Assembly (NCBI GenBank): GCA_900230115.1
Contig: LT907983.1
Coordinates: 3,115,001 to 3,179,000 of the forward strand
DNA: 64,000 nucleotides
Source: Spirosomataceae bacterium TFI 002
GTDB lineage: Bacteria; Bacteroidota; Bacteroidia; Cytophagales; Spirosomataceae
Direction of reading: 5' to 3'
Shown here: positions 5,904 to 23,246 of the stretch, one piece after another
How positions within the stretch are numbered: the stretch's first letter is position 1
How the letters are laid out: each line of letters begins with the position of its first letter
The notes under the pieces: generated by a model
What the model was told of the DNA's origin: nothing
What the model saw: only the letters and a program-made list of their open reading frames with translations
Database searches by the model: none
Translations under genes and position numbers: made by a program

Positions 5904-5911
5904 CAAAGATA
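5904..5911 (-). promoter_or_regulatory. -7 promoter box of the dehydrogenase gene
   Basis: TATCTTTG on the minus strand matches the Bacteroidota -7 consensus TAnnTTTG. Transcription would begin near 5897, which rules out the TTG codon at 5906 as a start. I see no TTG at the expected -33 distance. Confidence 0.5.
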
Positions 5912-6014
5912 GAGTAGATTCTAATTTATTCTCTAATTATGTTGAATTCAATAATTTATAATTATCAAGGTAACTATTAATATGTCCTTTTCTGATATTA
6001 AATTGATATAAGCC

Positions 6015-6047
6015 TTTGGACTTTAGCAGTTTCTTTTTGTAGTTTTG
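6015..6047 (+). promoter_or_regulatory. Promoter upstream of susC
   Basis: TTTG (6015-6018), a 21-base spacer and TAGTTTTG (6040-6047) fit the Bacteroidota promoter consensus. The predicted start near 6054 gives a leader of almost 90 bases before the susC start codon. Confidence 0.5.
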
Positions 6048-6140
6048 CTACTTGGAAATAGGAAAGATGCAATAATTACTTTCTAAAGTTATTGTTGTTT
6101 CAATTTTAGGCCCAATACTTTAAACTTTAAATATAAACCT

Positions 6141-9100
6141 ATGATGAACAATTTAACCCAGTTGGGTCGCTTGCGACTCAGCAATGGCTTGCAATGCATT
6201 AGTCTGAAATCAACTTTTGCTTTAGTGTTCGCCGCTCTTATCTCATTTTCTTCCTTGGCACAGTCGGTTTCCGTAAAAGGAAAAGTTACCGATGGCGATG
6301 CTTTTGGACTTCCAGGAGTAACTATTCAGGTAAAAGGATCTAGCAATGGTGTTGCAACTGATGTTGAAGGAAACTACGTAATTAATGATGTTCCTTCAAA
6401 AGCTACATTGGTATTTAGCTTTGTTGGCATGAACACTCAAGAGATTGCAGTAGATGGAAAAACTACAATCAATGTAACATTGAGTGATGATGCTCAAACT
6501 CTTGAAGAAATTGTAGTAGTTGGTTATGGTACTCAGAAAAGAAAAGAGATTTCTGGAACAGTAACTAGCTTAGGTAGCAAAGACTTCAATGCTGGTCTTG
6601 TTACAGATCCTTTACAAGCCGCGGCTGGTAAAGTGGCTGGATTGGTTATCACTCAAAGTAGTGGTGATCCTAATGCGGCACCTACAGTACGATTAAGAGG
6701 TACAGGTTCACTTACTGCTGGTTCAGAACCACTATATGTAATTGACGGTGTGGTTGGAGCACCAATCCAAAATGTAAATCCAAATGATATCTTAACAATG
6801 GATATTTTGAGGGATGCTTCATCAGCTGCTATTTACGGAGCTAGAGGTGCCAATGGAGTAATCATTTTAACTACAAAGCGTGGTAAATCAGGTGTACCAT
6901 CAGTTGATGTAAATATCTCAATGAGTACAGAGAATATTTCTCAAAGACCAGATATGATGAACGGAGCTCAGTTCCGTGAAGCTGCTACAAAGTACAATCA
7001 GCCATTTAATGACAATGGAGCTAACACTAATTGGTTAGACGCTATTACTCGTACAGCAACAACTCAAAATTATAATGTTGGGGTTTCGGGTGGAAATGAT
7101 AAATCTTCATATAGAGCATCTCTTGGATATTTAGATCAAGTTGGAACCCTAATAGGTTCAGGACGTGATAGATTAAACGCAAGATTGAATTTGGATACGA
7201 AAGCCTTAAACGATAAACTTTTGTTTGCTTTCAACTTTTCTGCATCTCAGACAAATGCTGACATTGCTCAGTTAATGGCATTAGGATTAGCAGTAAACTC
7301 GAGACCAACTGATCCTTTATATAATTCTGATGGGTCTTACTATCAAGAGCCAGGTACTTTCTCAAACTTTAACCCTTTAGCGGTAGTAGAAAATAGAAGT
7401 CAAAAAGAAAGGATTTCGGACATATTGAGTAATGTTCAGGCTAGTTATCTAATAACAGACGAATTGACTTTTAAGGTTAGTGGAACGTTGAGAACACAGG
7501 ACAAAAACAACACTGGTTTTCAAAATGCTATAACAAATGTCCCACTTAATGGTTATTCAGGAAACGTAGGGTATAGAAGCCTTAATGCAGAGCAGGATAA
7601 GCAAATAGAGACAACTTTGAATTATAACAAAGATTTAGGAGGAAGTAGATTAGGGTTACTTGCTGGATATCAATACCAGGATGTGATTTCTGATGGCTTT
7701 GGAGTTCAAAACCAAAACTTCTTGACAGACATTCTAGGAGCGGATAATATTGGTACTGGTTTAGGAATCAGGTCAAATCCGGGCTTTATTGGCTCTTATA
7801 AAAATGAGTATAAGTTAGTTTCTTTCTTTGGTCGTGCACAGTATACTTTGGCAGATAAGTATTTCGCTACTGTAAACCTTAGACGTGACGGTTCTACCAA
7901 GTTTGGTGAAAACAATAAATGGGGATTCTTCCCATCTGCTTCTGTTGGTTGGGCTATTTCAGAAGAAGCATTTTTGAAAGGAAGCGATGTAGTGACCAAC
8001 TTGAAGTTGAGAGCTAACTGGGGTCGAGTAGGAAACTCGAATGGTATAAATCCATTACAAGCTCAGTCTGTTTATGGTCCAGCTGGTTCATATTATGATG
8101 GTGTTTCTGGTTCGTTTTTACCAGCCTATGCAATTCAATCCAACCCAAATCCAGATTTGAAATGGGAGGTTAATCAGAGTTATGGAGTAGGTCTTGACTA
8201 TACTTTGTGGAAAGGTAAACTTCAGGGTTCTATTGATTGGTATACAAGAGATACACAAGATTTATTATACACTGTTAATGCACCTCAAGAGAAAGGATAT
8301 GTTTTCCCTACTATTTTGGCAAACATTGGTAGTATGAAAAATAAAGGATTTGAAATCACGGCTTCTTACCAGTGGATAGATACGCAGAAATTTGGATTTA
8401 GCTCAACATTTGCTGGTTCGTTCAATGAGAATGAAGTTGTAAGTCTTCAAAATAGTGAATTTGCTGCTCCTGATCAGGTTTTCCTTCAGTCAAGTTTAGG
8501 TGACTTTATTAGAGGTACATCCGCTGTTAATTTCTCAGTTTTACAAGCAGGTTACCCAGTTGGTGTATTTTACGGATATCAAGTGTCTGATATAAACGAA
8601 AGCGGAAAATATGTTTTCAAAGATTTGGATGGTAATGGTTCAATAGATGATAACGATAGAACTTACATTGGAAACCCAACTCCAACATTTGTGGGAAGTT
8701 TAACTAACAACTTCAATTTTGGAAATTTTGCCTTGACTTTCATGTTGCAAAGTAACCTAGGAGGAAAGGTTATGAATACAAACGCTTTACTTTTAGGAAA
8801 GCAGAATGGACGTATTCCTGAATCAAATGGCCTAGTGTCTACGCTAACTTCTCCAGTAAATGATGATCAAACAGTATCGATGGATTATTACGTTGAGAAT
8901 GCAAACTTCTTAAGACTGAATAATGCTAGACTTGGATATAATCTTCCAAAAACTGGAAACGTACTTAATAGAGCGAACATTTTTATATCTGGAAATAACT
9001 TATTCTTGTTAACAAAGTATTCTGGAGTTGATCCAGAGGTAAGCCAAGGGTTGAGCATTGGAAACTCTGCACCCGGTATTGATATCAGGAATACTTACTA

Positions 9101-9143
9101 TAAGACTCGCGTATTTACTGCGGGTGTTAACTTAACATTTTAA
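6141..9143 (+). CDS. SusC/RagA-type TonB-dependent outer membrane transporter
   Basis: An outer membrane transporter that takes up oligosaccharides or peptides together with its SusD partner, driven by TonB. It has an N-terminal signal region ending in ISFSSLAQ (about residue 41), a carboxypeptidase-regulatory-like domain (VKGKVTDGDAFGLPGV), the SusC signature EEIVVVGYGTQKR, a plug domain (VRLRGTGSL, PLYVIDGV, ILRDASSAAIYGARGANGV) and a long beta-barrel ending in a C-terminal aromatic (VNLTF). The 1000 residues are normal for the family. The susD gene follows 18 bases later. No glycoside hydrolase or sulfatase lies nearby, so the ligand is unknown. Confidence 0.95.
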   Translation: MMNNLTQLGRLRLSNGLQCISLKSTFALVFAALISFSSLAQSVSVKGKVTDGDAFGLPGVTIQVKGSSNGVATDVEGNYVINDVPSKATLVFSFVGMNTQEIAVDGKTTINVTLSDDAQTLEEIVVVGYGTQKRKEISGTVTSLGSKDFNAGLVTDPLQAAAGKVAGLVITQSSGDPNAAPTVRLRGTGSLTAGSEPLYVIDGVVGAPIQNVNPNDILTMDILRDASSAAIYGARGANGVIILTTKRGKSGVPSVDVNISMSTENISQRPDMMNGAQFREAATKYNQPFNDNGANTNWLDAITRTATTQNYNVGVSGGNDKSSYRASLGYLDQVGTLIGSGRDRLNARLNLDTKALNDKLLFAFNFSASQTNADIAQLMALGLAVNSRPTDPLYNSDGSYYQEPGTFSNFNPLAVVENRSQKERISDILSNVQASYLITDELTFKVSGTLRTQDKNNTGFQNAITNVPLNGYSGNVGYRSLNAEQDKQIETTLNYNKDLGGSRLGLLAGYQYQDVISDGFGVQNQNFLTDILGADNIGTGLGIRSNPGFIGSYKNEYKLVSFFGRAQYTLADKYFATVNLRRDGSTKFGENNKWGFFPSASVGWAISEEAFLKGSDVVTNLKLRANWGRVGNSNGINPLQAQSVYGPAGSYYDGVSGSFLPAYAIQSNPNPDLKWEVNQSYGVGLDYTLWKGKLQGSIDWYTRDTQDLLYTVNAPQEKGYVFPTILANIGSMKNKGFEITASYQWIDTQKFGFSSTFAGSFNENEVVSLQNSEFAAPDQVFLQSSLGDFIRGTSAVNFSVLQAGYPVGVFYGYQVSDINESGKYVFKDLDGNGSIDDNDRTYIGNPTPTFVGSLTNNFNFGNFALTFMLQSNLGGKVMNTNALLLGKQNGRIPESNGLVSTLTSPVNDDQTVSMDYYVENANFLRLNNARLGYNLPKTGNVLNRANIFISGNNLFLLTKYSGVDPEVSQGLSIGNSAPGIDIRNTYYKTRVFTAGVNLTF

Positions 9144-9161
9144 ATCATAAAGATAAATATT

Positions 9162-10643
9162 ATGAAAATATTCAAAAATAAATCAATGAAAGTGCTCTCG
9201 ATAAGCTTATTAGCTTTCGCAGGTGGATTTTCAGCTTGTACAGATCTAACAGAACCGATTTATGATGCGATTCCTGCTGATCAATTTTTACAAACTGATG
9301 CTCAAATAGCTGCAGCATTGGGACCTGCTTATTCAGGAATGAGAGGAATTACTTGGGATTGGTTTAACCCATCAGAAGCTTCTTCTGATGAATTAATCGT
9401 TCCAACACGTGGTGGTGACTGGTTTGATAATGGAGATTGGTTGGCTTATTCTCGTCACACATGGACACCAAATCACGGTCCTATTAATGGAATGTGGGGA
9501 TTTATCTTTGGGCAGATTGCTCAAGTAAACAAATTGGTTCCTGTTGTAAGTAATAATAAGGCGGCTGTGGATGAACTTCGTGCAGTAAGAGCTTTTTATT
9601 ACTTCATGGCTATAGACGCATTTGGGAATGTACCTATCTCAACAGAGTCATCTACTGATGCTGGAACAAAGACTAGAGCTGAGGTTTATGCATTTATTGA
9701 GAAAGAATTGACTGAGGCTATCCCAAGTTTACCTGCGGGAAAAGCTTATAGCCGTTTGAATCAAGATGCAGCTAGAATGCTATTGGCTAAATTGTATTTA
9801 AATGCAGGAGTTTATAAAGGTGCTCCTGAATGGCAGAAGGCGTATGACCAAATCAATTTGGTTATTAACTCTGCAAATGGATACTCTTTGTCTGCTAAAA
9901 CATTAGATAACTTTATTGTTTCAAATGAAGGATCTTCAGAGGCGATTTTCAATATTCCTTACGATGCTTCTTTAGCTGGTGGATTGAACTTCCATATGAG
10001 AACATTACATTATGCTAACCAACAAACTTATGGTTTAGGAAACGCTCCATGGAATGGTTTCTGTACACTTGCAGATTTCTATAATTCTTTTGATAAAAAT
10101 GATGCACGTTCTGAAATGTGGTTAGTTGGTCAGCAATATTCTGCTTCTGGTGCTGAATTAAAAGATGCAAAAGGTGCTCCTTTGGCTTTCGTTCCAGATT
10201 GGGAAAAAGATCAAATGACAGATGCTGATGCAGTGTATCAAGTTGCTGGTGCTCGTTCTCAGAAATATCAAATTCAAAGAAACAATCCTAACGGAGATCA
10301 GGATAACGACTACGTATTCTTCCGTTTGGCTGATGCACTTTTAATGAGAGCTGAAGCAGCACTTTGGTTGGGTAAAACAGGAGAAGCTTTGGCTGATGTA
10401 AATACTATTAGAGAGAGATCTTTAGTAGCTCCATTGACAGAAGTAACTGCTGAAGCAATTCTTGCCGAAAGAGGTCGTGAATTGGCTTGGGAAGGATGGA
10501 GACGTAATGATATGATTCGTTTCGGAACATTCACAAAAGAGAGAAAATTCATGAAGAATTTGGATAAAACAAGAGAATTGTTCCCTATTCCTCAGCCTCG
10601 TATCGATGCTAACCCATTGTTGAAGCAAAACCCTGGATACTAA
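9162..10643 (+). CDS. SusD/RagB-type surface lipoprotein
   Basis: The substrate-binding lid lipoprotein that works with the upstream SusC. The signal peptide ends in a lipobox FSAC, so the mature protein starts at Cys (CTDLTEPIYD). The TPR-like fold is suggested by segments such as VRAFYYFMAIDAFGNVP and ADALLMRAEAALWLG. The C-terminal SusD_RagB domain has the typical end WEGWRRNDMIRFG ... LFPIPQPRIDANPLLKQNPGY. Met1 or Met9 (MKVLSISLL) could be the start; Met9 gives the more typical signal peptide. A terminator follows at 10666, so susC-susD probably forms its own transcript. Confidence 0.94.
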   Translation: MKIFKNKSMKVLSISLLAFAGGFSACTDLTEPIYDAIPADQFLQTDAQIAAALGPAYSGMRGITWDWFNPSEASSDELIVPTRGGDWFDNGDWLAYSRHTWTPNHGPINGMWGFIFGQIAQVNKLVPVVSNNKAAVDELRAVRAFYYFMAIDAFGNVPISTESSTDAGTKTRAEVYAFIEKELTEAIPSLPAGKAYSRLNQDAARMLLAKLYLNAGVYKGAPEWQKAYDQINLVINSANGYSLSAKTLDNFIVSNEGSSEAIFNIPYDASLAGGLNFHMRTLHYANQQTYGLGNAPWNGFCTLADFYNSFDKNDARSEMWLVGQQYSASGAELKDAKGAPLAFVPDWEKDQMTDADAVYQVAGARSQKYQIQRNNPNGDQDNDYVFFRLADALLMRAEAALWLGKTGEALADVNTIRERSLVAPLTEVTAEAILAERGRELAWEGWRRNDMIRFGTFTKERKFMKNLDKTRELFPIPQPRIDANPLLKQNPGY

Positions 10644-10665
10644 TTTTTAATCCATTGGATATGAA

Positions 10666-10702
10666 TAAAGGCAGGACTGTATGGTTCTGCCTTTTTCTTT
10701 TT
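10666..10702 (+). terminator. Terminator of the susCD unit
   Basis: AAAGGCAGGAC and GTTCTGCCTTT pair around TGTATG and are followed by a T-rich tail. It separates susCD from the FG-GAP operon that starts at 10809. Confidence 0.85.
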
Positions 10703-10808
10703 AAACTAGAGCTACAGCTATTAATTTTGTTAGTTGTAAATTTAGTAATCCGAACACGATGAAAAACATTACCTGAATACAAGAAAGATACTTTAACCGA
10801 TCATTTAA

Positions 10809-13800
10809 ATGAAAAGAATTGCAGCAATATTGTTCTTTATGAGCTCGATTTTTTCCTGTAAGCAAGCTCAAGAAACTTTATTTGAAGAAATGCCATCTTC
10901 TTATACTGGAATAAATTTCGAAAACCGTAGTCTTGAAAAAGACGATTTCAATATATTCAATTATCGAAATTTTTATAATGGCGGTGGTGTGGCCATTGGA
11001 GATGTCAACAATGATGGACTCCCTGATGTTTTTGCAACTTCAAATTTTGAGGCGAATAAGCTCTATTTGAACAAGGGTGATTTCAAGTTTGAGGATATAT
11101 CTGATAAGTCAGGCATATCTGAAACTAAATTTTGGTCCACGGGAGTAACATTTGCCGATGTTAACGGTGATGGTCTTATGGATATTTATGTGTGTAATTC
11201 TGGTAGTAGAGATCAAAGAGGCAATCAATTGTTCATTAATGAAGGAATAGATAATGGAGTGCCACATTTTAAAGAGATGGCAGCTGCTGCAGGTTTGCTT
11301 GATGGTGGGTACTCTACTCACGCTGCTTTTTTAGACTTTGATAAAGATGGAGACCTTGACATGTATTTGCTCAATAATAGCTTTACGCCTATAGACAAGC
11401 TAGGTTACCAGAATTTTAGAGAAATAAGAGATTCTAAAGGTGGAGATAAATTCTTTAGAAATGACAGCCCTTCCTCTACAGAAATTGTCTTTTCAGATGT
11501 GTCAGAAGAAGTAGGCATTTATGGAAGTTTGATTGGTTTTGGTTTAGGTATTACTATCGGAGACGTTAATAATGATAACTGGCCGGACATCTATATTTCC
11601 AACGACTTTTATGAAAGAGATTATTTATATATCAACCAAAGAAACGGCACATTTAAAGAAGACTTAGAAAATCAAATGCCACATACAAGTCTTAGCTCCA
11701 TGGGGGCAGATATTGCAGATATAAACAATGATGGCAACTTGGATATTTTCGTCACAGATATGCTACCCGGTGATGATAGAAGATTGAAAACGACAAGTGT
11801 TTTCGAGGGGCATAACTTAGAAGCATTTAAAGTTAAGCAAGGTTTTTGGCATCAATATATGAGGAATAACCTGCAACTCAATAACGGAGATGGTACTTTT
11901 AGTGAGATAGGTCAACTCGCTGGCGTTGCAGCAACAGACTGGAGCTGGGGTGCTCTTATTTTTGATATGGACAATGATGGTTACAAAGATCTATTTGTGG
12001 CAAATGGAATTGCCAAAGATTTGACTGATCAAGATTTTGTAGAGTTTATGGGCGACGAGAATACCAAAAACTCAGTAAGAGAAAGCAATGATTTTAAGGC
12101 GAAAGAATTTATTGACAAAATATCTTCCAAAGCCATTCCGAATTATGCATTTATGAACCAAGGGAACTTGGAGTTTAAAAATAGAGCAAAAGAGCTTGGT
12201 TTAGAAGGACCTGGCTTTTCAAATGGTTCAGCTTACGGGGACCTTGATAATGATGGCGATCTCGATTTGATTGTGAACAATGTGAATGCACCACTTTCAG
12301 TATATAAAAATCGGAGTAATGAATTATTGAAGAATGCATTTTTAAAGGTAAATCTTGTTGGTGGTGATAAAAACAGAAATGGTATAGGTGCCAGAGTAAG
12401 CGTTTATCAAAAAGGTGAAATAAAGGTTTTGCAACAAATGCCTAATCGAGGCTTTCAGTCTTCATGCGATTTGCAACTGGTATTTGGACTAGGCGAAAAT
12501 TCGATTATTGACTCTTTGGTTGTTTTATGGCCGAATGACAAAACTCAAACGATACTAAATCCTAAAAGCAATGAGACAATACTTTTGGAGCAGAAAAACG
12601 CAAACGGTACTTTTTATATTGAAAATATAGAACACAAGCCAAACTTTGAAGACATTACGACTAGCAGTTTAAGTTACCGCCATTTAGAAAGTAACTTTAC
12701 AGATTTTGACCGTGACATATTATTAAAACAAAAACTCTCCACTCAGGGACCTGCTATGGCTGTAGGTGATGTGAATGGAGATGGCTTAGATGATGTTTAT
12801 TTGGGTGGTGCAAGTGGGCAGCCCAAGAAGTTATTTATTCAACAACTATCGGGGAGGTTTGTCGAAATGCCACAACCTGATTTCAGTTTTGATAATACAA
12901 CTGAAAATACGGATGCCTTGTTTTTTGATGCAGACAATGACAATGACTTAGATTTATATGTAGTAACAGGAAGTAATGAGTTCTTAGAAAATGCCCCAGA
13001 GCTTCATGATTTGTTATACCTCAATGATGGAAAAGGCAATATGAAAAGACAGCTTAATTTTCCGCAAATAAATGAAAACGGATCATGTGTTACAGCTGGG
13101 GATTTTGATAAAGATGGAGATTTAGACCTTTTTGTGGGTTCACGGATGATCCCAACTAAATATGGCTTAAATCCTCAAAGTAACCTGTATGTCAATGATG
13201 GTAAAGGAAATTTTAAAAACTACTCTAAGAGGTATTTTGAAGACATTGTAAACCTGGGTATGGTAACCGATGCAGAATGGTCGGATGTGAACAATGATGG
13301 TTTTATAGATTTAGTAATAAGTCAAGATTGGGGTGAAGTTTTAGTTTTTATCAACGATAAGGGTCAAAAGTTAGTCCCAGGTCCCCAAATTGAAAATTCT
13401 GAGGGCTTGTGGAGTTGTTTGAAACCAGTAGATATCGATAAAGATGGAGACATGGATTTTGTCGTGGGTAATATGGGATTAAACTCTAGGATAGTTGCTT
13501 CAAAATCCAATCCCGCTTATCTCTTAGTCAATGACTTTGATAAAAATGGTGTTTATGAGCAAATCATATCTTGCCAAACAGAAGATGGTGCTACATACCC
13601 GATGGTTTTGAAGGGGGAACTTCAGCGAGCATTACCTATGATCAAGCAGAAATATGTAAAATATGCTGATTATGCCAATAAAACAGTAGAGGACTTTTTC
13701 AGTAAAGAACAAATGGAAGGAGCGGTTAAAAAGAAAATTGTTTCTGCTGAGTCTGTTATGCTAATTAATGATGGAAAGGGAAATTTTTCAATAAAGGCCT

Positions 13801-14111
13801 TGCCGAAGGCAGCCCAATTTTCTAACCTAAATGCCATTGAAACTGGGGACTTCAACAATGACGGAAAAGTTGACCTTATTCTATTGGGAAACTTCTATGA
13901 CAACTTACCTGAGTTCGGGCGGTTTGATGCCAATTATGGTCTTATGTTAGCTGGTGGGGGTAATGGGGAATTTAAGGTTAAGTCAAGTGCCGAATCTGGG
14001 TTAAGGGTAAGTGGCCAAGTAAGAAAAGTAAACAAAGCAAAGTCAATTGCTGGTAAGGAAATTCTTATTGTGGCAAAAAATAATGACAGCGTACAAGTTT
14101 TTAAATTTTAG
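10809..14111 (+). CDS. Large FG-GAP/VCBS lipoprotein with ASPIC/UnbV domain (CRTAC family), first paralogue
   Basis: A 1100-residue lipoprotein (signal peptide with lipobox IFSC). It has two series of FG-GAP/VCBS repeats with the calcium-binding DxDxDG pattern. The first runs roughly from residue 60 to 500 (GDVNNDGLPDVF, ADVNGDGLMDIY, GDLDNDGDLDLI). An ASPIC/UnbV domain follows (GIGARVSVYQ, QQMPNRGFQSS, VLWPND), and then a second series (GDVNGDGLDDVY, GDFDKDGDLDLF, GDFNNDGKVDLI). The repeats suggest an integrin-alpha-like beta-propeller on the cell surface; function is not known. The next gene is a paralogue only 5 bases away. I cannot assign a substrate or partner. Confidence 0.88.
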   Translation: MKRIAAILFFMSSIFSCKQAQETLFEEMPSSYTGINFENRSLEKDDFNIFNYRNFYNGGGVAIGDVNNDGLPDVFATSNFEANKLYLNKGDFKFEDISDKSGISETKFWSTGVTFADVNGDGLMDIYVCNSGSRDQRGNQLFINEGIDNGVPHFKEMAAAAGLLDGGYSTHAAFLDFDKDGDLDMYLLNNSFTPIDKLGYQNFREIRDSKGGDKFFRNDSPSSTEIVFSDVSEEVGIYGSLIGFGLGITIGDVNNDNWPDIYISNDFYERDYLYINQRNGTFKEDLENQMPHTSLSSMGADIADINNDGNLDIFVTDMLPGDDRRLKTTSVFEGHNLEAFKVKQGFWHQYMRNNLQLNNGDGTFSEIGQLAGVAATDWSWGALIFDMDNDGYKDLFVANGIAKDLTDQDFVEFMGDENTKNSVRESNDFKAKEFIDKISSKAIPNYAFMNQGNLEFKNRAKELGLEGPGFSNGSAYGDLDNDGDLDLIVNNVNAPLSVYKNRSNELLKNAFLKVNLVGGDKNRNGIGARVSVYQKGEIKVLQQMPNRGFQSSCDLQLVFGLGENSIIDSLVVLWPNDKTQTILNPKSNETILLEQKNANGTFYIENIEHKPNFEDITTSSLSYRHLESNFTDFDRDILLKQKLSTQGPAMAVGDVNGDGLDDVYLGGASGQPKKLFIQQLSGRFVEMPQPDFSFDNTTENTDALFFDADNDNDLDLYVVTGSNEFLENAPELHDLLYLNDGKGNMKRQLNFPQINENGSCVTAGDFDKDGDLDLFVGSRMIPTKYGLNPQSNLYVNDGKGNFKNYSKRYFEDIVNLGMVTDAEWSDVNNDGFIDLVISQDWGEVLVFINDKGQKLVPGPQIENSEGLWSCLKPVDIDKDGDMDFVVGNMGLNSRIVASKSNPAYLLVNDFDKNGVYEQIISCQTEDGATYPMVLKGELQRALPMIKQKYVKYADYANKTVEDFFSKEQMEGAVKKKIVSAESVMLINDGKGNFSIKALPKAAQFSNLNAIETGDFNNDGKVDLILLGNFYDNLPEFGRFDANYGLMLAGGGNGEFKVKSSAESGLRVSGQVRKVNKAKSIAGKEILIVAKNNDSVQVFKF

Positions 14112-14116
14112 TATTA

Positions 14117-17100
14117 ATGAGTTTTAGAGTTAAATTAAGCCTTTTTATACTTACAATTTTCTTTTTCAATGGGTGTAAGTTCATGGGCAAAGAGGATGCA
14201 CTATTTCAGAAAGTAAGTAGCGAAGAATCGGGTGTAGATTTTATAAACCAAATAAGGGAAACTAAAGATTTCAATATTTTGGATTACCTATACTTTTACA
14301 ATGGTGGGGGGGTAAGTGCTGGAGATATCAACAATGACGGACTCACCGACCTCTTTTTTGTCTCGAACCAAGGAAAAAATACTCTTTACCTTAATAATGG
14401 GGTAAAAGAAGGTAAGCCTACGTTTGTAGATATTTCTGAAAAAGCAGGAATACAAGGTTACTCCGATTGGAAAACTGGTGTCACAATGGCTGATGTCAAT
14501 GCTGATGGCTTTCTTGATATCTATATATGTGCAGTTGGAAATTACAAAGGTTTGGAAGGCAGCAATGAGCTTTATATCAATAACGGTGATCTTACATTTA
14601 CCGAAAAAGCCGCTGATTATGGATTGGACTTTACTGGGTTTTCTACACAAGCTGCATTTTTTGATTACGACAAAGATGGAGACCTAGATTGCTACCTATT
14701 AAACCATGCTGTGCACAACTCAAAGTCTTATGATCGAGTGAATACACGAATGTTAAAAGATAATGAAGCAGGAGATTATTTATATAGAAATGAAGACGGC
14801 AAGTTTGTAGATGTGAGTGAACAAGCAGGTATTTATCAAGCTTCTATGGGTTATGGCTTAGGAATCTCAGTGGCAGATATTAATAATGATGGTTGGGATG
14901 ATATTTATGTTAGTAATGATTTTCATGAAGATGACTACTATTATGTAAATCAAAAAGATGGAACATTTAAAGAAGAGGTAAAGGAGCATTTCAAGCACTT
15001 GAGTAGATTTTCCATGGGGAATGATATTGCCGATATTAATAATGACGGCTTTCAAGATATCATGACATTGGATATGTTTCCAGAAGATGAAACTGTAGAA
15101 AAGTCCTCGGTAGGGGAAGATCCATTGGACATTTACCTTTATAAATTACAATTTGGTTATTTTAATCAATATAGTAGAAACTGCCTCCAGCTAAATATGG
15201 GTGGTGAAAAATTCAGTGACATTGCTGCTTCGGCAAATGTGATGGCAACAGACTGGAGCTGGAGCACGCTCATGGCCGATTACGATAACGATGGAATCAA
15301 GGATATTTTTGTCAGTAATGGTATTTTGCGTCGTCCAAATGACTTAGATTATTTAAAATTTATAGTAGCGGATTCTTTACATTATAATTTACCAACTTCT
15401 CCAAAACTGGATCAAGAGGCCATAGATAAAATGCCTGACGGCAAGTGGCACAATTATCTTTATAAAGGAAATAAGGACTTGCGGTTTGAAGATAAGTCAG
15501 AGACTTGGGGATTTGAAGAAAAAGGAATTTCGAATGGTTCTGTATATGCTGACCTCGATAACGATGGAGACTTAGATCTAGTAACTAATAACCTCAATGA
15601 AAAGGCATCTATTTATTTAAATCAAAGTAGAGAAGTAAATAAGAATAACTATTTGAAAGTTAGGTTTAAAGGTGAAGGGAAAAACACCTTTGGAATAGGA
15701 ACAAAGGTTATCATCAAAACTAGTGATGGTGAGCAATTGCAACAAATGATGCCAACAAGAGGGTTTCTAAGTTCAGTAGAGCCTTCCTTACTTTTCGGGA
15801 TTGGTCAATTGAGCCAAATAGATACACTTTTTGTGATTTGGGAAAACGAAAAGATGCAAACCATTCTGCGACCTGAAATAAATACTACGGTAGTATTAGA
15901 TCAAGAATTAGCCACTGAGTTAGTTAGCGATCATTTTTTTAGGGCGAAAGTAAAGCCACTTTTTGAAGACATTTCTAAAACAGTTTTCGTCTCTTACCAA
16001 CATAAAGAAAATGTATATTTTGATTTTAATCGTGAGCATTTAATTCCATTCAAAGTATCTATAGAAGGGCCAAAGTTGGCTGTTGGAGATGTAAACGGGG
16101 ATGGTCTTGAAGACTTTTATGTAGGTGGTGCAAAATATCAAATCGGAAATTTGCTTTTACAATCAAATGATGGTTTTACACAATCTGAGCAACCAATTTT
16201 TAAAGCCGATTCCATATTTGAAGATGTAGATGCTTTGTTTTTTGATGTAGATAATGACAATGATTTGGACTTATATGTAGTCTCCGGAGGGAATGAGTTT
16301 TACGATAAAATGACTCAGCAATTTGATAGGTTATACCTCAACGATGGTAAAGGAAATTTCACAAAAGGGAAACTGCCAGAAATGTATGACAACAAAAGTT
16401 GTGTACGAGCTTGTGATTTTGATAAAGATGGAGATATAGATTTGTTTGTAGGAGGTAGAGTGGTTGCTTATCAATATGGAAAGTCTCCAAAGTCTTACCT
16501 TCTCGAAAATAAAGGGAAAGGTATTTTTATAGATGTAACTGAAGAAAAAGCACCTCAGCTTAGAGGAGCTGGTATGGTTACCGACGCCATTTGGGCAGAT
16601 ATTGATGGCGATGGATTGGAGGATTTAACAATTGCTGGTGACTGGATGGCAATAAAGACCTTTAAAAATGCTAAAAATAAGTTGATTCTCAGCGATAATG
16701 GGATCGGAGAATTTACTGGTTTTTGGAATGGAATGTGTGCTGGTGACTTCGACAAAGACGGTGACATTGACCTTATGGTTGGTAATTTAGGAACCAATTC
16801 AAAGTTTAGGAAAGAAAATGGTGGAATGCTTAAAATGTGGATCAAGGATATTGATGGCAATGATAGTAAAGACCAGGTAATAGCTTACAATAGGGGCAAG
16901 AAATGGTATCCTGCCAACTCAAAAGATGAAATGGGCAAACAAATGCCGGGTGTCATTAACAAGAATTTTGTAGAGTACAAGGATTTTGCGGGCAAAACAA
17001 TTGAGGAGATTTTCAAAAACAATGAGCTAGATGATGCAGAGGAAAGGCTTGTAAATACTTACGAATCCATGTACTTGGAGAATAATGGAAAAGGTGTTTT

Positions 17101-17428
17101 TGAACCGAAGGAGTTACCAAGTTTAGCACAAGTTTCTAAAATTATGGTCCTTCGTACTGAAGATGTCAATAACGACGGAAATCTCGACGTGCTTGTGGGA
17201 GGTAATTTTGACGGTGCAAGTTTATATCAAGCTCGCTATGATAGTTTCTTTGGGTTGATACTTATGGGAGATGGCAAAGGTGGCTTTAAGGCTTCTGTTC
17301 CTACTGATAATGCTATGTTGCTGAAAGGCGATGTGAGAGATATTAAAACCTTAGAGCTTAAGTCAGGCAAAATCTATATAGTAGCTAGAAACAATGATAG
17401 CCTTCAGTTTTTCAAAAAAATAGAATAA
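14117..17428 (+). CDS. Large FG-GAP/VCBS lipoprotein with ASPIC/UnbV domain, second paralogue
   Basis: A 1103-residue paralogue of the preceding gene with the same plan. A lipoprotein signal (FFFNGC) is followed by the shared opening FNILDYLYFYNGGGVSAGD, FG-GAP repeats with DxDxDG loops (GDINNDGLTDLF, ADVNADGFLDIY, ADLDNDGDLDLV), a central ASPIC/UnbV domain (GIGTKVIIK, QQMMPTRGFLSS) and a second repeat series (GDVNGDGLEDFY, CDFDKDGDIDLF, EDVNNDGNLDVL). Its stop codon overlaps the next ATG by one base, so the genes are translationally coupled. Keeping two diverged full-length copies side by side suggests a hetero-oligomer or two ligands; that is inference. Confidence 0.88.
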   Translation: MSFRVKLSLFILTIFFFNGCKFMGKEDALFQKVSSEESGVDFINQIRETKDFNILDYLYFYNGGGVSAGDINNDGLTDLFFVSNQGKNTLYLNNGVKEGKPTFVDISEKAGIQGYSDWKTGVTMADVNADGFLDIYICAVGNYKGLEGSNELYINNGDLTFTEKAADYGLDFTGFSTQAAFFDYDKDGDLDCYLLNHAVHNSKSYDRVNTRMLKDNEAGDYLYRNEDGKFVDVSEQAGIYQASMGYGLGISVADINNDGWDDIYVSNDFHEDDYYYVNQKDGTFKEEVKEHFKHLSRFSMGNDIADINNDGFQDIMTLDMFPEDETVEKSSVGEDPLDIYLYKLQFGYFNQYSRNCLQLNMGGEKFSDIAASANVMATDWSWSTLMADYDNDGIKDIFVSNGILRRPNDLDYLKFIVADSLHYNLPTSPKLDQEAIDKMPDGKWHNYLYKGNKDLRFEDKSETWGFEEKGISNGSVYADLDNDGDLDLVTNNLNEKASIYLNQSREVNKNNYLKVRFKGEGKNTFGIGTKVIIKTSDGEQLQQMMPTRGFLSSVEPSLLFGIGQLSQIDTLFVIWENEKMQTILRPEINTTVVLDQELATELVSDHFFRAKVKPLFEDISKTVFVSYQHKENVYFDFNREHLIPFKVSIEGPKLAVGDVNGDGLEDFYVGGAKYQIGNLLLQSNDGFTQSEQPIFKADSIFEDVDALFFDVDNDNDLDLYVVSGGNEFYDKMTQQFDRLYLNDGKGNFTKGKLPEMYDNKSCVRACDFDKDGDIDLFVGGRVVAYQYGKSPKSYLLENKGKGIFIDVTEEKAPQLRGAGMVTDAIWADIDGDGLEDLTIAGDWMAIKTFKNAKNKLILSDNGIGEFTGFWNGMCAGDFDKDGDIDLMVGNLGTNSKFRKENGGMLKMWIKDIDGNDSKDQVIAYNRGKKWYPANSKDEMGKQMPGVINKNFVEYKDFAGKTIEEIFKNNELDDAEERLVNTYESMYLENNGKGVFEPKELPSLAQVSKIMVLRTEDVNNDGNLDVLVGGNFDGASLYQARYDSFFGLILMGDGKGGFKASVPTDNAMLLKGDVRDIKTLELKSGKIYIVARNNDSLQFFKKIE

Positions 17429-18927
17429 TGAAATTTAGAGCTATCGTCCTTTTGGCATTTTCTATTACCCTCAGTTTAGAAGTAATACTTCTTGGGTGTA
17501 CAAATAGAGAGGGGGAGGAATTGGCCAAAAGCTATTGTAGCAGCTGCCACCTTTTTCCAGAGCCAAGTTTACTTCCAAAAAATGTTTGGCAATTGAGTAC
17601 ACTTCCATATATGGGAATCTTGATGGGCCTCGATAGAGAAATATCAAACTTGCCAAAGGAGCTAAAGGACTACACGCTTTTAAAACCTAAAGACGCTCTG
17701 ATTTCGCAAAAGGATTTTGAAAAAATAAAAGCTTATTACATTTCAAGTGCTCCTGAAAAATTGGAACATCCGCCTTATACCAAATTAGCGACTTTAGATA
17801 AGCTGTTCAAAATAGAAAAGCTTGAAGTGAAGTTAGATTCAAGTCAAATACCGAATTACACTGCAATTAGAATAGATGAAAAGTCGCAAAAGATAATTGC
17901 TGGAGATCAAGCTAATCGGGTAATTTGGATTACAGACTCAAAAGGTAAAGCAATAAAATCATTTAAAGACAAAGATGCTTTGGCCTATGTTGATATCACT
18001 CCCAATAATGACTATCTGCTTACCTATATTGGTTATACCACGCAAGCAAATCCATTGGTAAATGGGTCGGCAGAATGGTTAAAACTGAATGGAAGTTTAA
18101 GCAAAACCTTGACAGAGCTAAATAGACCCATTGAAATACTTTCACGAAACATAGACGAAGAACCAGATGAAGAGCTGATATGTAATGAGTTTGGTTTTAA
18201 AGAAGGTGGTTTAAGCGTATGGAAAAAAGATAAAACTGGGAAGTACGAAAAGAAAGTAATAAACCCTCAAACAGGGGCTACGAAGACCATAGTAAAGGAT
18301 TTTAATAATGATGGGAAGCCAGATATTTTATCACTTTGTGCTCAAGGAGACGAAAGGATAATCTTGTATATAAATAAGGGAGGGCTTGTTTTTGAGGAAA
18401 AGCAGCTACTTCGCTTTCCTTCTATTTATGGTTCGAGCTCATTTGATATCGCTGATATAAATGATGATGGGGAATTTGATATTATTTACACTGCTGGGGA
18501 TAATGCTGACTTTACGACAGTTTTGAAGCCCTATCATGGAGTGTATGTTTTCCTTAATAAAGGAAACTTTAAGTTTGAGCAATCACAATTTTTCGCTCAG
18601 AATGGTGCCACAAAAGTAATCTCAGGAGATTTTGACAATGATGGAGATGTGGACATGGTTTCAATAGCTCTATTTCCCGATGTTAATAATAGGGCAGAAG
18701 AAGGTTTTATTTATTTCGAAAACCAGAAAGGTAACTTTATCCAAAAAACGCTACCTATAAATCACTTAGGTCGCTGGGCTGTAATGGATGCAGGTGACCT
18801 AGACAATGATGGAGATATTGACTTAGTGTTAGGAAGTCACCCCGTGGCGAAATTTCCAGCTGGATTTGATCAGGCTTGGAAACAGGGGAGTGGGCTCGTA
18901 ATCTTAAGAAATATGACAATCAAATAG
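17428..18927 (+). CDS. Lipoprotein with N-terminal CxxCH heme motif and FG-GAP repeats
   Basis: A 499-residue lipoprotein (lipobox LLGC, Cys24). It carries a single covalent heme motif CSSCH at residues 37-41, followed by LFPEPSLLPKNVW and MGILMG, where a Met could be the distal ligand. The rest has FG-GAP-type repeats (KDFNNDGKPDIL, ADINDDGEFDII, GDFDNDGDVDMV, GDLDNDGDIDLV). The layout suggests a surface beta-propeller with a cytochrome c-like head. It overlaps the preceding gene by one base and lies 3 bases before the TonB-dependent receptor, so it belongs to the same operon. Heme attachment and a redox role are inference. Confidence 0.82.
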   Translation: MKFRAIVLLAFSITLSLEVILLGCTNREGEELAKSYCSSCHLFPEPSLLPKNVWQLSTLPYMGILMGLDREISNLPKELKDYTLLKPKDALISQKDFEKIKAYYISSAPEKLEHPPYTKLATLDKLFKIEKLEVKLDSSQIPNYTAIRIDEKSQKIIAGDQANRVIWITDSKGKAIKSFKDKDALAYVDITPNNDYLLTYIGYTTQANPLVNGSAEWLKLNGSLSKTLTELNRPIEILSRNIDEEPDEELICNEFGFKEGGLSVWKKDKTGKYEKKVINPQTGATKTIVKDFNNDGKPDILSLCAQGDERIILYINKGGLVFEEKQLLRFPSIYGSSSFDIADINDDGEFDIIYTAGDNADFTTVLKPYHGVYVFLNKGNFKFEQSQFFAQNGATKVISGDFDNDGDVDMVSIALFPDVNNRAEEGFIYFENQKGNFIQKTLPINHLGRWAVMDAGDLDNDGDIDLVLGSHPVAKFPAGFDQAWKQGSGLVILRNMTIK

Positions 18928-18930
18928 TTT

Positions 18931-21447
18931 ATGACTAACCCAAGATTCGTTTTACTTCTTATCATTACCTTTTTTGGTTTGTCAAAACCAACAGATCTAA
19001 TGGCCCAAGCGAGCAATTTTTTTATTAAAGGCAAGGTAATAGCGATAACTGATAAAGAACCTATTGAGGGTGCATCCATATATTTCTCAGGAAGCAATTT
19101 TGCAACAATCAGTGATTCACTAGGGATGTTTTCAGCTTCTCTACAAAGTAAAGTTTTCAAAATCACTGTTAGGTCAGTGGATAACAAGCTGAAAATTGTA
19201 AGTATAGATTTGGACCAAAGCACCGAAATAATCATTGAATTAGAAAAAAAAGAAAAGCTGCTTGACGAAGTAGTAATTACAGCAGAAAAGTCAGATGCCA
19301 ATGTAAAACGTGCCATTATGGGTGTTGAGAAAATGAGTGGGAAAACACTCAAAAAACTTCCAACTCTCATGGGTGAAGCGGACGTCATAAGAAGTATCAT
19401 GATGCTACCAGGTGTTTCTACAGTGGGAGAAGGAGCAGCAGGCTTTAATGTTAGGGGTGGAAACGTAGACCAAAACCTAGTGCTACTTGACGGAATTCCG
19501 CTTTACAACACTTCTCATTTGTTTGGTTTCTTTACCAGTTTCAATGCAGATATGGTGCAGGATATTAGCTTGTACAAAGGTGGCATTCCTTCTAGGTTTG
19601 GAGGTCGTACTTCATCTGTTTTAGACGTACGACTAAAGTCGGGTAGTTTTGAAAAATGGCAGATTCAAGGTGGTTTGGGCCCCATTTCAAGTAAGATACT
19701 TTTAGAAGGTCCCATTTTTAAAGGAAAAACGTCAATCATTGTAGGTGCTAGAGGATCCATTTCGGATTTTTATCTCAAATATTTCGATAATCCAGCATTA
19801 AAGAAAAGTAAGGCTAATTTTTATGATCTAAATGCCAAAGTCACTCAAAATTTAGGTAAAAGTCAGCAGTTATCCATTGGGGTATATGCTAGCCATGACG
19901 CTTTTAAGTTAGGACAGGATACCTTGTATTATTGGGATACCCAAAGTGTTTATTTGAAACATAATGCACTATTGAAAAATGGTATTTCTCACAATTTCAC
20001 TGCTTTGCAAAGCAACTATAAATATGGGATTGCTGGTTTAAAGTCAGGCTATGAGTACAATTGGAGGCCATCAATTATTCAAAAATCATTTAAAGAAGAG
20101 CTCAATATTTCCTTAAAAGAAAATAGGTTTATAGACTTTGGTCTTGAAGTTAATTTTTATGCCAATGATGCAGGAACTTTAAGCCCTGATGCATCAGCAT
20201 CAATAATTCAGACCTATGAGATGCCCATTGAGCAAAGTAGAGATTTTGCCGGATATATTGGGGTGTCACAAAAGGTTGGCAAAAAGCTAAATGTAGACGC
20301 AGGCTTGCGATATGTTGTGTATCAGCTTGTAGGACCGAGCGATAGGTATAGTTACTTAAGTGACACACCTAGAAGTGAAGAAACGATAAAGGATACCTTG
20401 AGCTATGCTAAAAACGAAGTGATTCAAACTTACAACGGATTTGAGCCTAGGCTGTCTTTATCAATGCAATTGGATAGCGGCTTTGCCGTGAAATTTGGGT
20501 ATAATCGTATGCAACAGTTCATGCATTTATTATCCAATACGATGGCAATTTCACCTGCTGATATATGGAAAAACAGTAACGAACAGTTACCACAGCAGAT
20601 AGTAGACCAATTTTCGGTTGGTTTTTTCAAAAACTTGGGAGGGAATATGTACGAAACTTCAGTGGAGGTCTATTACAAAAAACTTCAAAATGTGATTGAC
20701 TATGTGGATGGGGCTTCTTTGTATTTAAATCCTACAGTGGAGACTCAGTTATTAGTTGGGAATGGGAAAGCCTATGGGGCAGAGTTTTTTGTAAAAAAAG
20801 TACGTGGCATAAATTTGACAGGATGGCTTTCTTATACTTATGCTAGGAGTTTTCGGACTATTTCTGCCACTAACGAACAAATAGGTGCAAATTTTGGAAT
20901 TCAATTTCCCTCAAACTTCGATAGTCCGCATAACTTTAAGGTTGTGCTAAATGACCGTTTGAATAAGCGAATTACCTTCAATGCTAACTTTACTTATAAT
21001 ACTGGACGACCTATAACTTTTCCCAATGGCCGGTATAAACTCTACGCTTACAATGATGTCTTTAACTATTTAGAGTCTTCTGGCTTAATACCTCGTGACG
21101 GGTACGATGTAGCTTCTTACGATTTTAGAGGTCAAACTATAAAGTTTGTTCAAAGAAGTACAGTTACTGAAATTTTAGACGGTTACTCAGTGCCAAGTTT
21201 TACACTACGGAATGCGGAAAGAATTCCAGACTACATAAGACTCGATATCGGGTTTACTTTGGACCCAAAACCTAACTCAAAATTCAATAGCAGTTGGAAT
21301 TTCTCTATTTACAATGTCTTGGGTCGTCAAAATACTTATTCGATTTACTTTAGGTCGGCCACTGGTTTACGAAACCAAGCCCGTACTTTTAAGTTGTCTG
21401 TTCTTGCAGCAGCAATACCATCGCTAACCTATAATTTCAAATTCTGA
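18931..21447 (+). CDS. TonB-dependent receptor with CarboxypepD_reg-like domain
   Basis: An 838-residue outer membrane receptor. A signal peptide ends near DLMAQA, then comes a carboxypeptidase-regulatory-like domain (IKGKVIAITDKEPIEGASI), a DEVVITAEK TonB-box-like segment, a plug (GFNVRGGNVDQNLVLLDG, LYKGGIPSRFGG) and a beta-barrel ending in LTYNFKF. It is shorter than SusC and lacks the SusC signature. The partner is a DUF4249 lipoprotein, whose ATG overlaps this stop by one base; such pairs recur in Bacteroidota. The ligand is unknown. It lies 3 bases after the heme/FG-GAP gene. Confidence 0.92.
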   Translation: MTNPRFVLLLIITFFGLSKPTDLMAQASNFFIKGKVIAITDKEPIEGASIYFSGSNFATISDSLGMFSASLQSKVFKITVRSVDNKLKIVSIDLDQSTEIIIELEKKEKLLDEVVITAEKSDANVKRAIMGVEKMSGKTLKKLPTLMGEADVIRSIMMLPGVSTVGEGAAGFNVRGGNVDQNLVLLDGIPLYNTSHLFGFFTSFNADMVQDISLYKGGIPSRFGGRTSSVLDVRLKSGSFEKWQIQGGLGPISSKILLEGPIFKGKTSIIVGARGSISDFYLKYFDNPALKKSKANFYDLNAKVTQNLGKSQQLSIGVYASHDAFKLGQDTLYYWDTQSVYLKHNALLKNGISHNFTALQSNYKYGIAGLKSGYEYNWRPSIIQKSFKEELNISLKENRFIDFGLEVNFYANDAGTLSPDASASIIQTYEMPIEQSRDFAGYIGVSQKVGKKLNVDAGLRYVVYQLVGPSDRYSYLSDTPRSEETIKDTLSYAKNEVIQTYNGFEPRLSLSMQLDSGFAVKFGYNRMQQFMHLLSNTMAISPADIWKNSNEQLPQQIVDQFSVGFFKNLGGNMYETSVEVYYKKLQNVIDYVDGASLYLNPTVETQLLVGNGKAYGAEFFVKKVRGINLTGWLSYTYARSFRTISATNEQIGANFGIQFPSNFDSPHNFKVVLNDRLNKRITFNANFTYNTGRPITFPNGRYKLYAYNDVFNYLESSGLIPRDGYDVASYDFRGQTIKFVQRSTVTEILDGYSVPSFTLRNAERIPDYIRLDIGFTLDPKPNSKFNSSWNFSIYNVLGRQNTYSIYFRSATGLRNQARTFKLSVLAAAIPSLTYNFKF

Positions 21448-22502
21448 TGAAAAAGATCCTCTTTGTGATTTTGTTGGGTTTGATTTCTTGCGAAACTGAG
21501 ATTACAAACTACAAAGCAAAAAACCTCAATAACTCATTTGTAATTTATGGAGAAATAACCAACCTGCCGGGACCTCATGCTTTTCGCATCAACTATTTGA
21601 TTGATTACGATCCGTATGACATTACAAAATATATCGGAAAACCAGTAGATGGTGCCGAAGTTGAAGTCATTGATAAAGATGGGAAAACGGTAGCCTTAGA
21701 AGCATTTGGGCAAGGTTTATATAAAACCCCAATGGGTTTTAAAGGGGTGGTTAATCAATTTTATCAATTATCTGTTAAAACGGTAGAGGGCTATAGCATA
21801 CAATCTGATTTTCAAGAGTTACTACCTCCACCTGAATTGAAAGGATTTGACTACACTTTTGTCAATGCCGAAAAAGTAGAAGATATGTACTTTGACGTAA
21901 AGGCTAGCATTATTGATAAAAAGGGCACAAAGGATTTTTATTTTGTAAAAAAACAGGACTTCATTGAGTTTATTACAACCTGTCCAGAGCCACCGCCACC
22001 ACCAGCAAGTCCTCCAGCATGTTATAGCAAATGTTGGCAAGCTCCGTTAAATACTCAACCAGAATTGCTAAGTGATTTTTTGGTAGATGGGCAAGAGCTC
22101 CCTCTTACTTTTCCAAGAATCAATGCTTTTGACTTTACAAAATGGGTTGTACAAGTAGAGGCTTACAATGTCTCAAAGGAAATTTCGGAATATTGGAAAA
22201 GACAGGAAGAACAACGCACTATTGGAGGTGGTCTTTTTGATAAAATTCCAGCTCAAATAGGTGGAAACTTATCATGTACCAATGAGCCCAATATAGAAGT
22301 ACTAGGTATTTTTGTGGTTGCCGGAAAAACTAAAAAAAGACTGGAGATTGATCGTTTTAAAAGCTTTGATCAAGCCACCTTGGCCAAGGTTCAAACTTAT
22401 TTGAATTTCAACGACCTTCGAAATAAGGAGCTCAAAGTATATAATTGTGACCAAGCTGGTTGGGTAGATTATAACATTGGTTTTTCCCTACCTCCTGAAT
22501 AA
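21447..22502 (+). CDS. DUF4249 family lipoprotein, partner of the TonB-dependent receptor
   Basis: A 351-residue lipoprotein with a short signal peptide and lipobox LISC (mature CETEITNY). DUF4249 proteins are typically encoded right after TonB-dependent receptors and are thought to act as surface partners, like SusD for SusC. A proline run (EPPPPPASPPACYSKC) sits near residue 180, and several paired cysteines suggest disulfides in the exported protein. It is the last gene of the five-gene operon and ends 14 bases from the stop of a convergent gene. Confidence 0.8.
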   Translation: MKKILFVILLGLISCETEITNYKAKNLNNSFVIYGEITNLPGPHAFRINYLIDYDPYDITKYIGKPVDGAEVEVIDKDGKTVALEAFGQGLYKTPMGFKGVVNQFYQLSVKTVEGYSIQSDFQELLPPPELKGFDYTFVNAEKVEDMYFDVKASIIDKKGTKDFYFVKKQDFIEFITTCPEPPPPPASPPACYSKCWQAPLNTQPELLSDFLVDGQELPLTFPRINAFDFTKWVVQVEAYNVSKEISEYWKRQEEQRTIGGGLFDKIPAQIGGNLSCTNEPNIEVLGIFVVAGKTKKRLEIDRFKSFDQATLAKVQTYLNFNDLRNKELKVYNCDQAGWVDYNIGFSLPPE

Positions 22503-22516
22503 GCAATTACGCTATT

Positions 22517-23089
22517 TCAATAACTGTAGTTGTAGTATTTGAGCTTCCCTTTATACGCTCCTTTTACTTGCTCTCCCTGGTAATTCTTACAATCAAATTT
22601 TATTTCATAATTACCCTGACCCGTATTTATAACATCCATTGTTCCTTGCGAAATTTGAAATGCTTGAGAGGACTGATCAGGTAGGTCCATATTTAAAAAG
22701 CCTCTTCCTGAGTCAAAAGTGAATGGTTTTCGGTTGTAATTGTGATCAAAATTATATCTTCCCGTCAATAGTTCAGTATTGCTATATGAGTACATCTCAA
22801 AAAACAATAAATGTCCAAATCCGCGGGCAGAGTCAATGATTCCACTTTTGTCATAAATACTGATTCCACCCGAAATGAGGTTCAAATTAATATTGTTGCC
22901 ATTTACAGGGTTGTCTTTCCCATAATTGATAATAAAGCCTTTGTCTAAGTTGTATTTGTTTTGATTAAAACTAAACGAACTTAGGTCATATACAAAGCTT
23001 GGAGTCACTTCGTCTGACGGAGTACATGAATAGATTAAGCCCGCAGCAAATACCGAAAAAAGAAGCTTCCAAATCTTATGGTTCATCAC
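22517..23089 (-). CDS. Small lipoprotein of unknown function
   Basis: A 190-residue protein with a lipoprotein signal (LIYSC, mature CTPSDEVTPSF). I do not recognise the family. The mature part is rich in Asn, Tyr and Gly and probably beta-structured (GRYNFDHNYNRKPFTFDSGRG, cut here at the visible core). It is convergent with the DUF4249 gene and divergent from the flippase gene, with 157 bases between the two starts. Its role could be linked to the surface operon, but only position supports that. Confidence 0.7.
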   Translation of the reverse strand: MMNHKIWKLLFSVFAAGLIYSCTPSDEVTPSFVYDLSSFSFNQNKYNLDKGFIINYGKDNPVNGNNINLNLISGGISIYDKSGIIDSARGFGHLLFFEMYSYSNTELLTGRYNFDHNYNRKPFTFDSGRGFLNMDLPDQSSQAFQISQGTMDVINTGQGNYEIKFDCKNYQGEQVKGAYKGKLKYYNYSY

Positions 23090-23246
23090 TAAAAAAATTG
23101 AATCAATACTAAAGTTAAAAATAATTGGGTCAAATTTGACATTTAGACATAGTTAATACCTTTTGATTGCTTGCAATATTGGCGAGAATCATGCTCTAAA
23201 GATATATTTCATGTATCATTGCACTTTATTTCACTCTAATTTATAA

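Follow-up and report, generated by a model that had tools for sequence, protein, structure and literature searches.

Which task could unite two giant FG-GAP/ASPIC lipoproteins, a heme lipoprotein and a TonB receptor-DUF4249 pair that are encoded side by side? The question is raised by a window of 64,000 nucleotides from Spirosomataceae bacterium TFI 002 (LT907983.1, positions 3,115,001 to 3,179,000; all coordinates below count from the window start), in which a first-pass annotation had noticed such a five-gene set behind a susCD unit. Here we report that the five genes, termed A to E, recur in the same order in other genera of the family, and that relatives of C are repeatedly found beside SusC-SusD and ASPIC genes elsewhere in the order. 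At about even chances, we propose that the locus encodes a SusCD-type outer-membrane capture-and-import apparatus, extended by a heme c propeller and by a second importer of the TonB receptor-DUF4249 kind.

All five genes lie on the + strand, and the coordinates of the open reading frames (ORFs) reproduce the intergenic gaps of 5, -1, 3 and -1 bases given by the first-pass annotation. The SusC-SusD pair is located directly upstream on the same strand, with 18 bases between its two genes. Both proteins exceed the cut-offs of their models (TIGR04056 and PF07980), and their adjacency identifies a SusCD-type outer-membrane uptake locus, as had been described. The genes and the key positions of C are as follows (aa, amino acids):

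6141..9143, + strand: SusC/RagA-type TonB-linked outer membrane protein, 1000 aa (TIGR04056 752 bits, PF00593)
9162..10643, + strand: SusD-type lipoprotein, 493 aa (PF07980 112.9 bits, PF14322)
10809..14111, + strand: A, FG-GAP/ASPIC lipoprotein, 1100 aa (FG-GAP_3, UnbV_ASPIC)
14117..17428, + strand: B, FG-GAP/ASPIC lipoprotein, 1103 aa, paralogue of A (FG-GAP_3, UnbV_ASPIC)
17428..18927, + strand: C, lipoprotein with an N-terminal c-type heme domain and a predicted seven-bladed FG-GAP/VCBS propeller, 499 aa (FG-GAP_3, AlphaFold2)
17536..17550, + strand: CSSCH heme-binding motif of C, residues 37-41 (invariant in the C-family alignment)
17611..17613, + strand: Met62 of C, candidate axial ligand (invariant in the C-family alignment)
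18931..21447, + strand: D, TonB-dependent receptor of the short DUF4249-paired kind, 838 aa (PF13715, PF07715)
21447..22502, + strand: E, DUF4249 lipoprotein with a Pro-rich Cys-flanked loop, 351 aa (PF14054)

Four lipoprotein signals and one outer membrane receptor had been claimed for the set. Lipobox-like N-termini were indeed recognized by eye in A (IFSC), B (FNGC), C (LLGC) and E (LISC), D being the TonB receptor. The assignment of A and B as FG-GAP/ASPIC proteins was likewise confirmed by Pfam, which found eight FG-GAP_3 stretches in A, ten in B and one UnbV_ASPIC domain in each above the curated cut-off (PF07593, 65.0 and 65.9 bits, cut-off 23.4; PF13517 was matched too). An ASPIC domain combined with FG-GAP propeller repeats places both proteins in the UnbV_ASPIC/CRTAC1 family, and A matches the CRTAC1 structure 9etn in a phmmer search of the Protein Data Bank (PDB; E 9.2e-12). 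Unlike CRTAC1/UnbV_ASPIC proteins, A and B are bacterial lipoproteins in which two FG-GAP regions flank the ASPIC domain (residues 525-591 of A). Each contains 13 calcium-type DxDxDG-like motifs. With 43% identity over the whole length A and B are paralogues, and the A proteins (19/19, support 1.0) and B proteins (19/19, support 0.951) form separate clades in the tree. Thus, the duplication predates the spread of the locus.

C carries exactly one CxxCH motif, and the motif is absent from A, B, D and E. The annotated heme lipoprotein therefore stands, but it had been overlooked that C is also an FG-GAP propeller protein: FG-GAP_3 was the sole Pfam family found in C, which matched no curated cytochrome c model. 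The heme motif was examined in an alignment of 84 C-family members with 29-72% identity to C; among 86 C-like ORFs, a truncated one lacking the N-terminus (L044), a duplicate gene (L109) and an over-extended ORF (L094) were left out. C37, C40, H41, P60 and M62 are invariant. CxxCH is present in 84/84 members and also in the omitted L094, and Met62 sits 21 residues past the heme-motif His. Cytochrome models at E <= 0.01 were matched by a minority of the members (Cytochrome_CBB3 by 11, DHC by 10, Cytochrom_C by 3), and the heme-domain profile of C matched the PDB cytochrome c 6cuk with an E value of 0.025. A cytochrome c assembly gene is present in the genome, PF01578 being over its cut-off at two places. 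Together with the invariant CxxCH and Met62, this supports a heme in C, which by analogy with known systems is probably redox-active.

The AlphaFold2 model of C (mean predicted local distance difference test score 94.1, predicted template modelling score 0.91) comprises a helical domain at the N-terminus and a propeller of 28 strands, which by hand count on the predicted structure form seven blades of four. Among the rows shown of a fold search with the propeller, the best match was aldos-2-ulose dehydratase (Z 30.4, root-mean-square deviation 3.1, 343 aligned residues), followed by integrin alpha chains (Z 28.6 and below) and CRTAC1 (Z 26.8). The conserved positions of C fall into two sets. 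Fourteen are in AB loops and correspond to calcium motifs, while the invariant R233, E309, D358, D361 and H370 and the near-invariant N359, K367 and Y369 are located in or adjoining the BC and DA loops. Since BC and DA loops share one face of a propeller, we infer from the model a polar pocket on the face opposite the calcium-binding AB loops.

These residues raise the alternative that C is itself a surface redox enzyme, whose heme c domain and VCBS propeller with its own active site would oxidize or reduce a captured substrate before uptake. The best propeller match shown is a catalytic protein, ahead of the integrins, and in one genome a C paralogue directly follows genes for a MauG-type di-heme peroxidase and a Rieske protein (see below). 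Nevertheless, function does not follow from similarity of fold, the matches to integrins, CRTAC1 and lectin-type propellers are almost as strong, and the conserved loops may only bind a ligand. Moreover, most of the C-paralogue neighbourhoods examined have no redox enzyme. The architecture resembles that of quinohemoprotein dehydrogenases, which combine a heme c domain and a propeller in one chain, as C does. However, domain order and blade type differ, and no PQQ (pyrroloquinoline quinone) repeat family occurs among the 12 Pfam families matching the 84 members scanned. No match to the PqqE model exceeded its cut-off, and matches below the cut-off appear in all 14 control genomes as well. Aldos-2-ulose dehydratase has a cupin domain beside its propeller, and no cupin family was matched in the 84 members. 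We consider a redox enzyme of this kind rather unlikely. C otherwise shares with VCBS propeller enzymes and lectins such as aldos-2-ulose dehydratase and PVL the predicted seven-bladed VCBS-type propeller with calcium-binding DxDxDG motifs in AB loops, and differs from them by its cytochrome c domain; according to the available excerpts of PMC8023676, VCBS propellers include both lectins and enzymes.

D contains the CarbopepD_reg_2 (PF13715) and TonB receptor plug (PF07715) domains, and E contains DUF4249 (PF14054, 74.4 bits, cut-off 28.5). E directly follows D with a 1-base overlap, which makes them a TonB receptor-DUF4249 pair. A DUF4249 gene also adjoins D in 4/4 D-paralogue loci fetched. 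The Pro-rich Cys-flanked loop of E is present in 24/24 orthologues and 0/4 paralogues aligned. Searches of the PDB with phmmer gave nothing at E 0.01 for D and nothing meaningful for E; the structural model of E (mean predicted local distance difference test score 78.9) retrieved only Ig/fibronectin-like matches, which are commonly matched folds (best Z 6.7). D-E is a pair of the same kind as BT2172/BT2173, for which the excerpts of PMC11003636 describe conserved adjacency and similar consequences when either gene is disrupted. Unlike that pair, D-E follows a SusCD-ASPIC-heme set, and E has the Cys-flanked loop.

To see how far the gene set extends, we searched 222 genomes of the family with C and D. 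C gave 35 hits at E <= 1e-120, of which 27 with at least 56% identity were read as locus copies; with the C of G367, which is in the same place at 47% identity, C is at the locus in 28 genomes. D gave 31 hits at E <= 1e-190, to which G381 was added, a genome whose contig ends inside D. The locus thus occurs in 32/222 genomes and in five genera (g1 with the window, g6, g9, g10 and g135), and the notion of an operon unique to this genome was rejected. The genera include Emticicia and Lacihabitans; Lacihabitans sp. CCS-44 (G329) and Emticicia aquatica (G426) belong to the Leadbetterellaceae in the NCBI taxonomy. Of the 31 foreign loci 30 were fetched, G383 being counted from coordinates only. A-B-C-D-E is contiguous and in order in 19 of these 30, and six cut by contig ends are consistent with it. 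One (G329) has an inverted three-gene cassette between C and D, and in four (G309, G345, G424 and G363) C is absent between B and D. As the same gene order is found in other genera, the clustering exceeds chance. The first-pass annotation had asked for a gene-neighbourhood check and would have abandoned a joint system if the order were confined to one genome or its members were often apart, neither of which is generally the case.

All 28 genomes with C at the locus also have D, 27 by search and the 28th being G381 with its truncated contig (hypergeometric p 1.3e-31, a value that ignores shared descent). In genus g6, C or D is present in 21/38 genomes and neither in 17, four of which are at least 98% complete. 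The operon C proteins form one clade in the tree (27/27, local support 0.999). The joint five-gene system proposed earlier is supported in part: D is present wherever C is at the locus, but C is missing or a remnant in four genomes. Two of these (G309 and G424) encode, elsewhere in the genome, a C relative with an identity of about 41-43%, which might replace the lost C.

Several individual loci deserve description. In G367 (L155, 9056-10525), C is in its normal place, 46-47% identical, on a long branch outside the other 26; A is split into two ORFs, and A, B, D and E are otherwise ordinary. In G363 (L241, ~8709-8919), a decayed C lies between intact B and D and consists of an N-terminal piece with the heme motif, a short C-terminal piece and stops. 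The C relatives of G424 (L158) and G309 (L159), both Emticicia-genus genomes, lie behind genes that by eye resemble sulfate assimilation genes. Three g135 genomes without C (L107, L108, L242) have a third ASPIC protein, 56-57% identical to A, shortly downstream of E. The cassette of G329 (L109/L160) encodes a SusC-like receptor of 942 aa, an erythromycin-esterase-family protein of 478 aa and a 604-aa protein without a Pfam match. The genes downstream of E, named by eye, are acyl-CoA dehydrogenase-like and peptidase-like in g6 and g9 and flippase-like in g135 and the window.

Whether the genes are expressed together was judged from two further features between SusD and A:

10667..10694, + strand: terminator hairpin followed by a T run (12-pair stem, covariation)
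10722..10729, + strand: TAATTTTG, possible A-E promoter (fits TAnnTTTG)

The hairpin and T run are present in the SusD-A gap of 26/26 loci aligned. The 12-pair stem is paired in 97.1% of cells, 5/12 pairs are changed on both sides, and the covariation score was reached in 0/500 shuffles. The hairpin pattern occurs at just two sites in the whole genome of the window strain and is therefore not a stock terminator there. An automated scan recovered it in 19/23 foreign loci; the misses are four loci of G322's genus, in which the alignment reveals the hairpin with an internal TT/TT mismatch. TAnnTTTG, which we take to be the Bacteroidota -7 element, follows the hairpin in 16/26 gaps compared with 13% in shuffles and 0/26 on the other strand; in this count, the L155 gap was mis-set owing to the split A gene, and the L154 gap was shortened. 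A sigma-70 scan yielded 56 promoter-like sites compared with 57.4 expected and is hence uninformative. Given the conserved, covarying terminator, A-E is probably a transcription unit of its own, separate from SusCD. A single seven-gene transcript was rejected as the default for the same reason, though partial read-through may occur.

The claim that the five products are made together is supported by most loci, where overlaps or short gaps are usual, but not by genus g135 (G322, G337, G425-G427), with a C-D distance of 212 to 377 bases, or by G329 with its insert. From these interruptions, D-E may have its own transcription start in g135 and G329. They also suit the alternative of two unrelated uptake units side by side, SusCD with A and B (and C) for one nutrient and D-E for a second, their adjacency being inherited. 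D-E does move as a pair, with DUF4249 adjoining D in every paralogue locus fetched and the pairing published (excerpts of PMC11003636), and all carriers of the locus belong to a single family, so that the common order partly reflects descent. Still, the gene set stays whole although its flanks vary between genera, C and D are lost together within g6, and they overlap or almost touch in most loci. This argues against two independent units, which we consider rather unlikely.

Beyond the locus, the C family is spread widely in Bacteroidota, with CxxCH and Met kept throughout. A strong C match (E <= 1e-50) was found in 83/291 genomes of the order, and ASPIC genes in 160/291. An ASPIC gene occurs in 81/83 genomes with a strong C match and in 79/208 without (Fisher p 6.7e-24, again ignoring shared descent). 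We then inspected 55 C-paralogue loci, a chosen subset of the order-wide C matches that are related by descent and not independent. An ASPIC gene lies within 20 kb of the C paralogue in 19/55, compared with 1.33 expected from per-genome ASPIC counts, and is its immediate neighbour in 9/55. A SusC gene is within this distance in 26/55 loci, and both SusC and ASPIC genes in 17/55. The order SusC-SusD-ASPIC-C is found in G177, G185, Adhaeribacter aerolatus and a Bacteroidetes metagenome-assembled genome (SusD by position in the latter two), SusC-SusD-C-ASPIC in G004 and G055 (SusD of G055 by position only), and ASPIC-C in G260 and G254. That these components recur together in varying arrangements points to a functional link in addition to common descent.

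These arrangements also bear on the idea that the propeller proteins serve in adhesion or matrix binding and have no part in nutrient uptake. The sequence match of A to CRTAC1 and the fold matches of C to integrin and CRTAC1 propellers would fit this idea. The recurrent siting beside SusC-SusD in several families and gene orders points to uptake instead, and a heme on an adhesin would be without evident reason. We regard such a role as very improbable.

Among the C paralogues, G006 (L077, 6430-10671) has genes for the MauG-type di-heme peroxidase, the Rieske protein and C in a row with gaps of -14 and 11 bases, neighbours that favour redox work of C. In one genus-level group (L078, L079, L087, L089, L091), the C paralogue is preceded by an asparaginase_2 gene and by another gene that encodes 245 aa and looks CutC-like by eye; SusCD and an ASPIC gene are nearby and a creatininase gene lies opposite, the Pfam run covering L078 only. 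In the acidobacterial C relatives L172-L176 (27-36% identity), the first 200 residues of the ORF as called contain no CxxCH; the corresponding stretch of L171 is masked. Each of these VCBS relatives, L172-L176, shares a 4-base overlap with the next gene, which encodes ~540-576 aa.

The proposed capture-and-import apparatus follows precedents for its parts. In the excerpts of PMC10404256, the seven-bladed propeller lipoprotein BtuG2 caps BtuB2 and binds B12; C would resemble it as a propeller lipoprotein with a TonB-dependent transporter, seven-bladed by model, whereas BtuG is without heme by the description in these excerpts and not of the VCBS type on the present comparison. SusCD, a glycan-binding lipoprotein and an enzyme form stable four-part utilisomes, as described in the excerpts of PMC7618045 for levan and dextran in B. 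theta. Like these, the present locus has a SusC-SusD core with two more outer-membrane lipoproteins encoded adjacent; it differs from the utilisomes excerpted there in its FG-GAP/ASPIC and heme propellers, in the absence of a glycoside hydrolase and in a second TonB receptor. By these precedents, together with those for receptor-DUF4249 pairs and VCBS propellers, A and B would be large calcium-binding double-propeller lipoproteins on the surface that bind the ligand, either a glycoconjugate or a protein, and correspond to the surface glycan-binding proteins of utilisomes. Beside them, the c-type heme of C would probably take or give electrons at the polar pocket on one propeller face. D-E would act as the second importer, the DUF4249 lipoprotein serving D as a lid or as a partner in ligand binding, and SusCD and D-E would probably import two products of one source.

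The joint absence of C and D from the 17 g6 genomes and the gene order kept in most foreign loci speak for this apparatus. Several findings weigh against it. The terminator separates SusCD from A-E, D-E is set apart from C in G329 and g135, and 4/32 genomes have lost C or retain a remnant of it but keep A, B, D and E, which shows that the rest of the locus can persist without C. The distance matrix of C tracks those of the other locus proteins least well (r 0.51-0.78), and no ASPIC gene lies within 20 kb of the C paralogue in 36/55 loci. No degradative enzyme is present in the gene set or the scanned neighbours: among the proteins Pfam-scanned at 1364-30807 (ORFs of at least 150 aa), no glycan-degrading enzyme family was found, hence no such enzyme marks a polysaccharide utilization locus there and no substrate is implied. 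Surface exposure of the lipoproteins is an assumption.

As regards novelty, the parts are known and the combination of SusCD, propeller lipoproteins, heme propeller and DUF4249 pair appears to be new. The first-pass annotation had found no match to a described system, which holds for the whole set but not for its parts, precedented in the excerpts of PMC11003636, PMC10404256 and PMC7618045; no paper on the combination of SusCD, ASPIC propellers, heme propeller and receptor-DUF4249 pair was among the matches listed in the open-licence literature, as far as their excerpts extend. Overall, the five-gene observation is confirmed and its earlier interpretation partly supported. The ASPIC/FG-GAP and heme-propeller families are named only by their repeats in the family libraries used, and their recurrent placement beside SusC-SusD suggests a concrete role for both. 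If the heme were redox-active on the surface, SusCD nutrient capture would extend past binding and hydrolysis. It appears doubtful that the C family represents a novel type of surface redox enzyme, in which a c-type heme is joined to a VCBS propeller whose active-site face is conserved; were it to act on a ligand captured by SusCD and ASPIC proteins, Bacteroidota would couple nutrient capture to outer-membrane electron transfer.

An Rfam scan of 5800-23300 gave no match. Two neighbours on the - strand complete the window. At 26863-30807, a hybrid two-component regulator is encoded that combines kinase, receiver and AraC-type domains with propeller and Y_Y_Y domains. A dedicated regulator alongside is another mark of polysaccharide utilization loci, but this one lies on the opposite strand with two unrelated genes in between and is not obviously linked to the locus. 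At 2916-5906, a fused FAD-linked oxidase and 4Fe-4S protein is encoded divergently from SusC.

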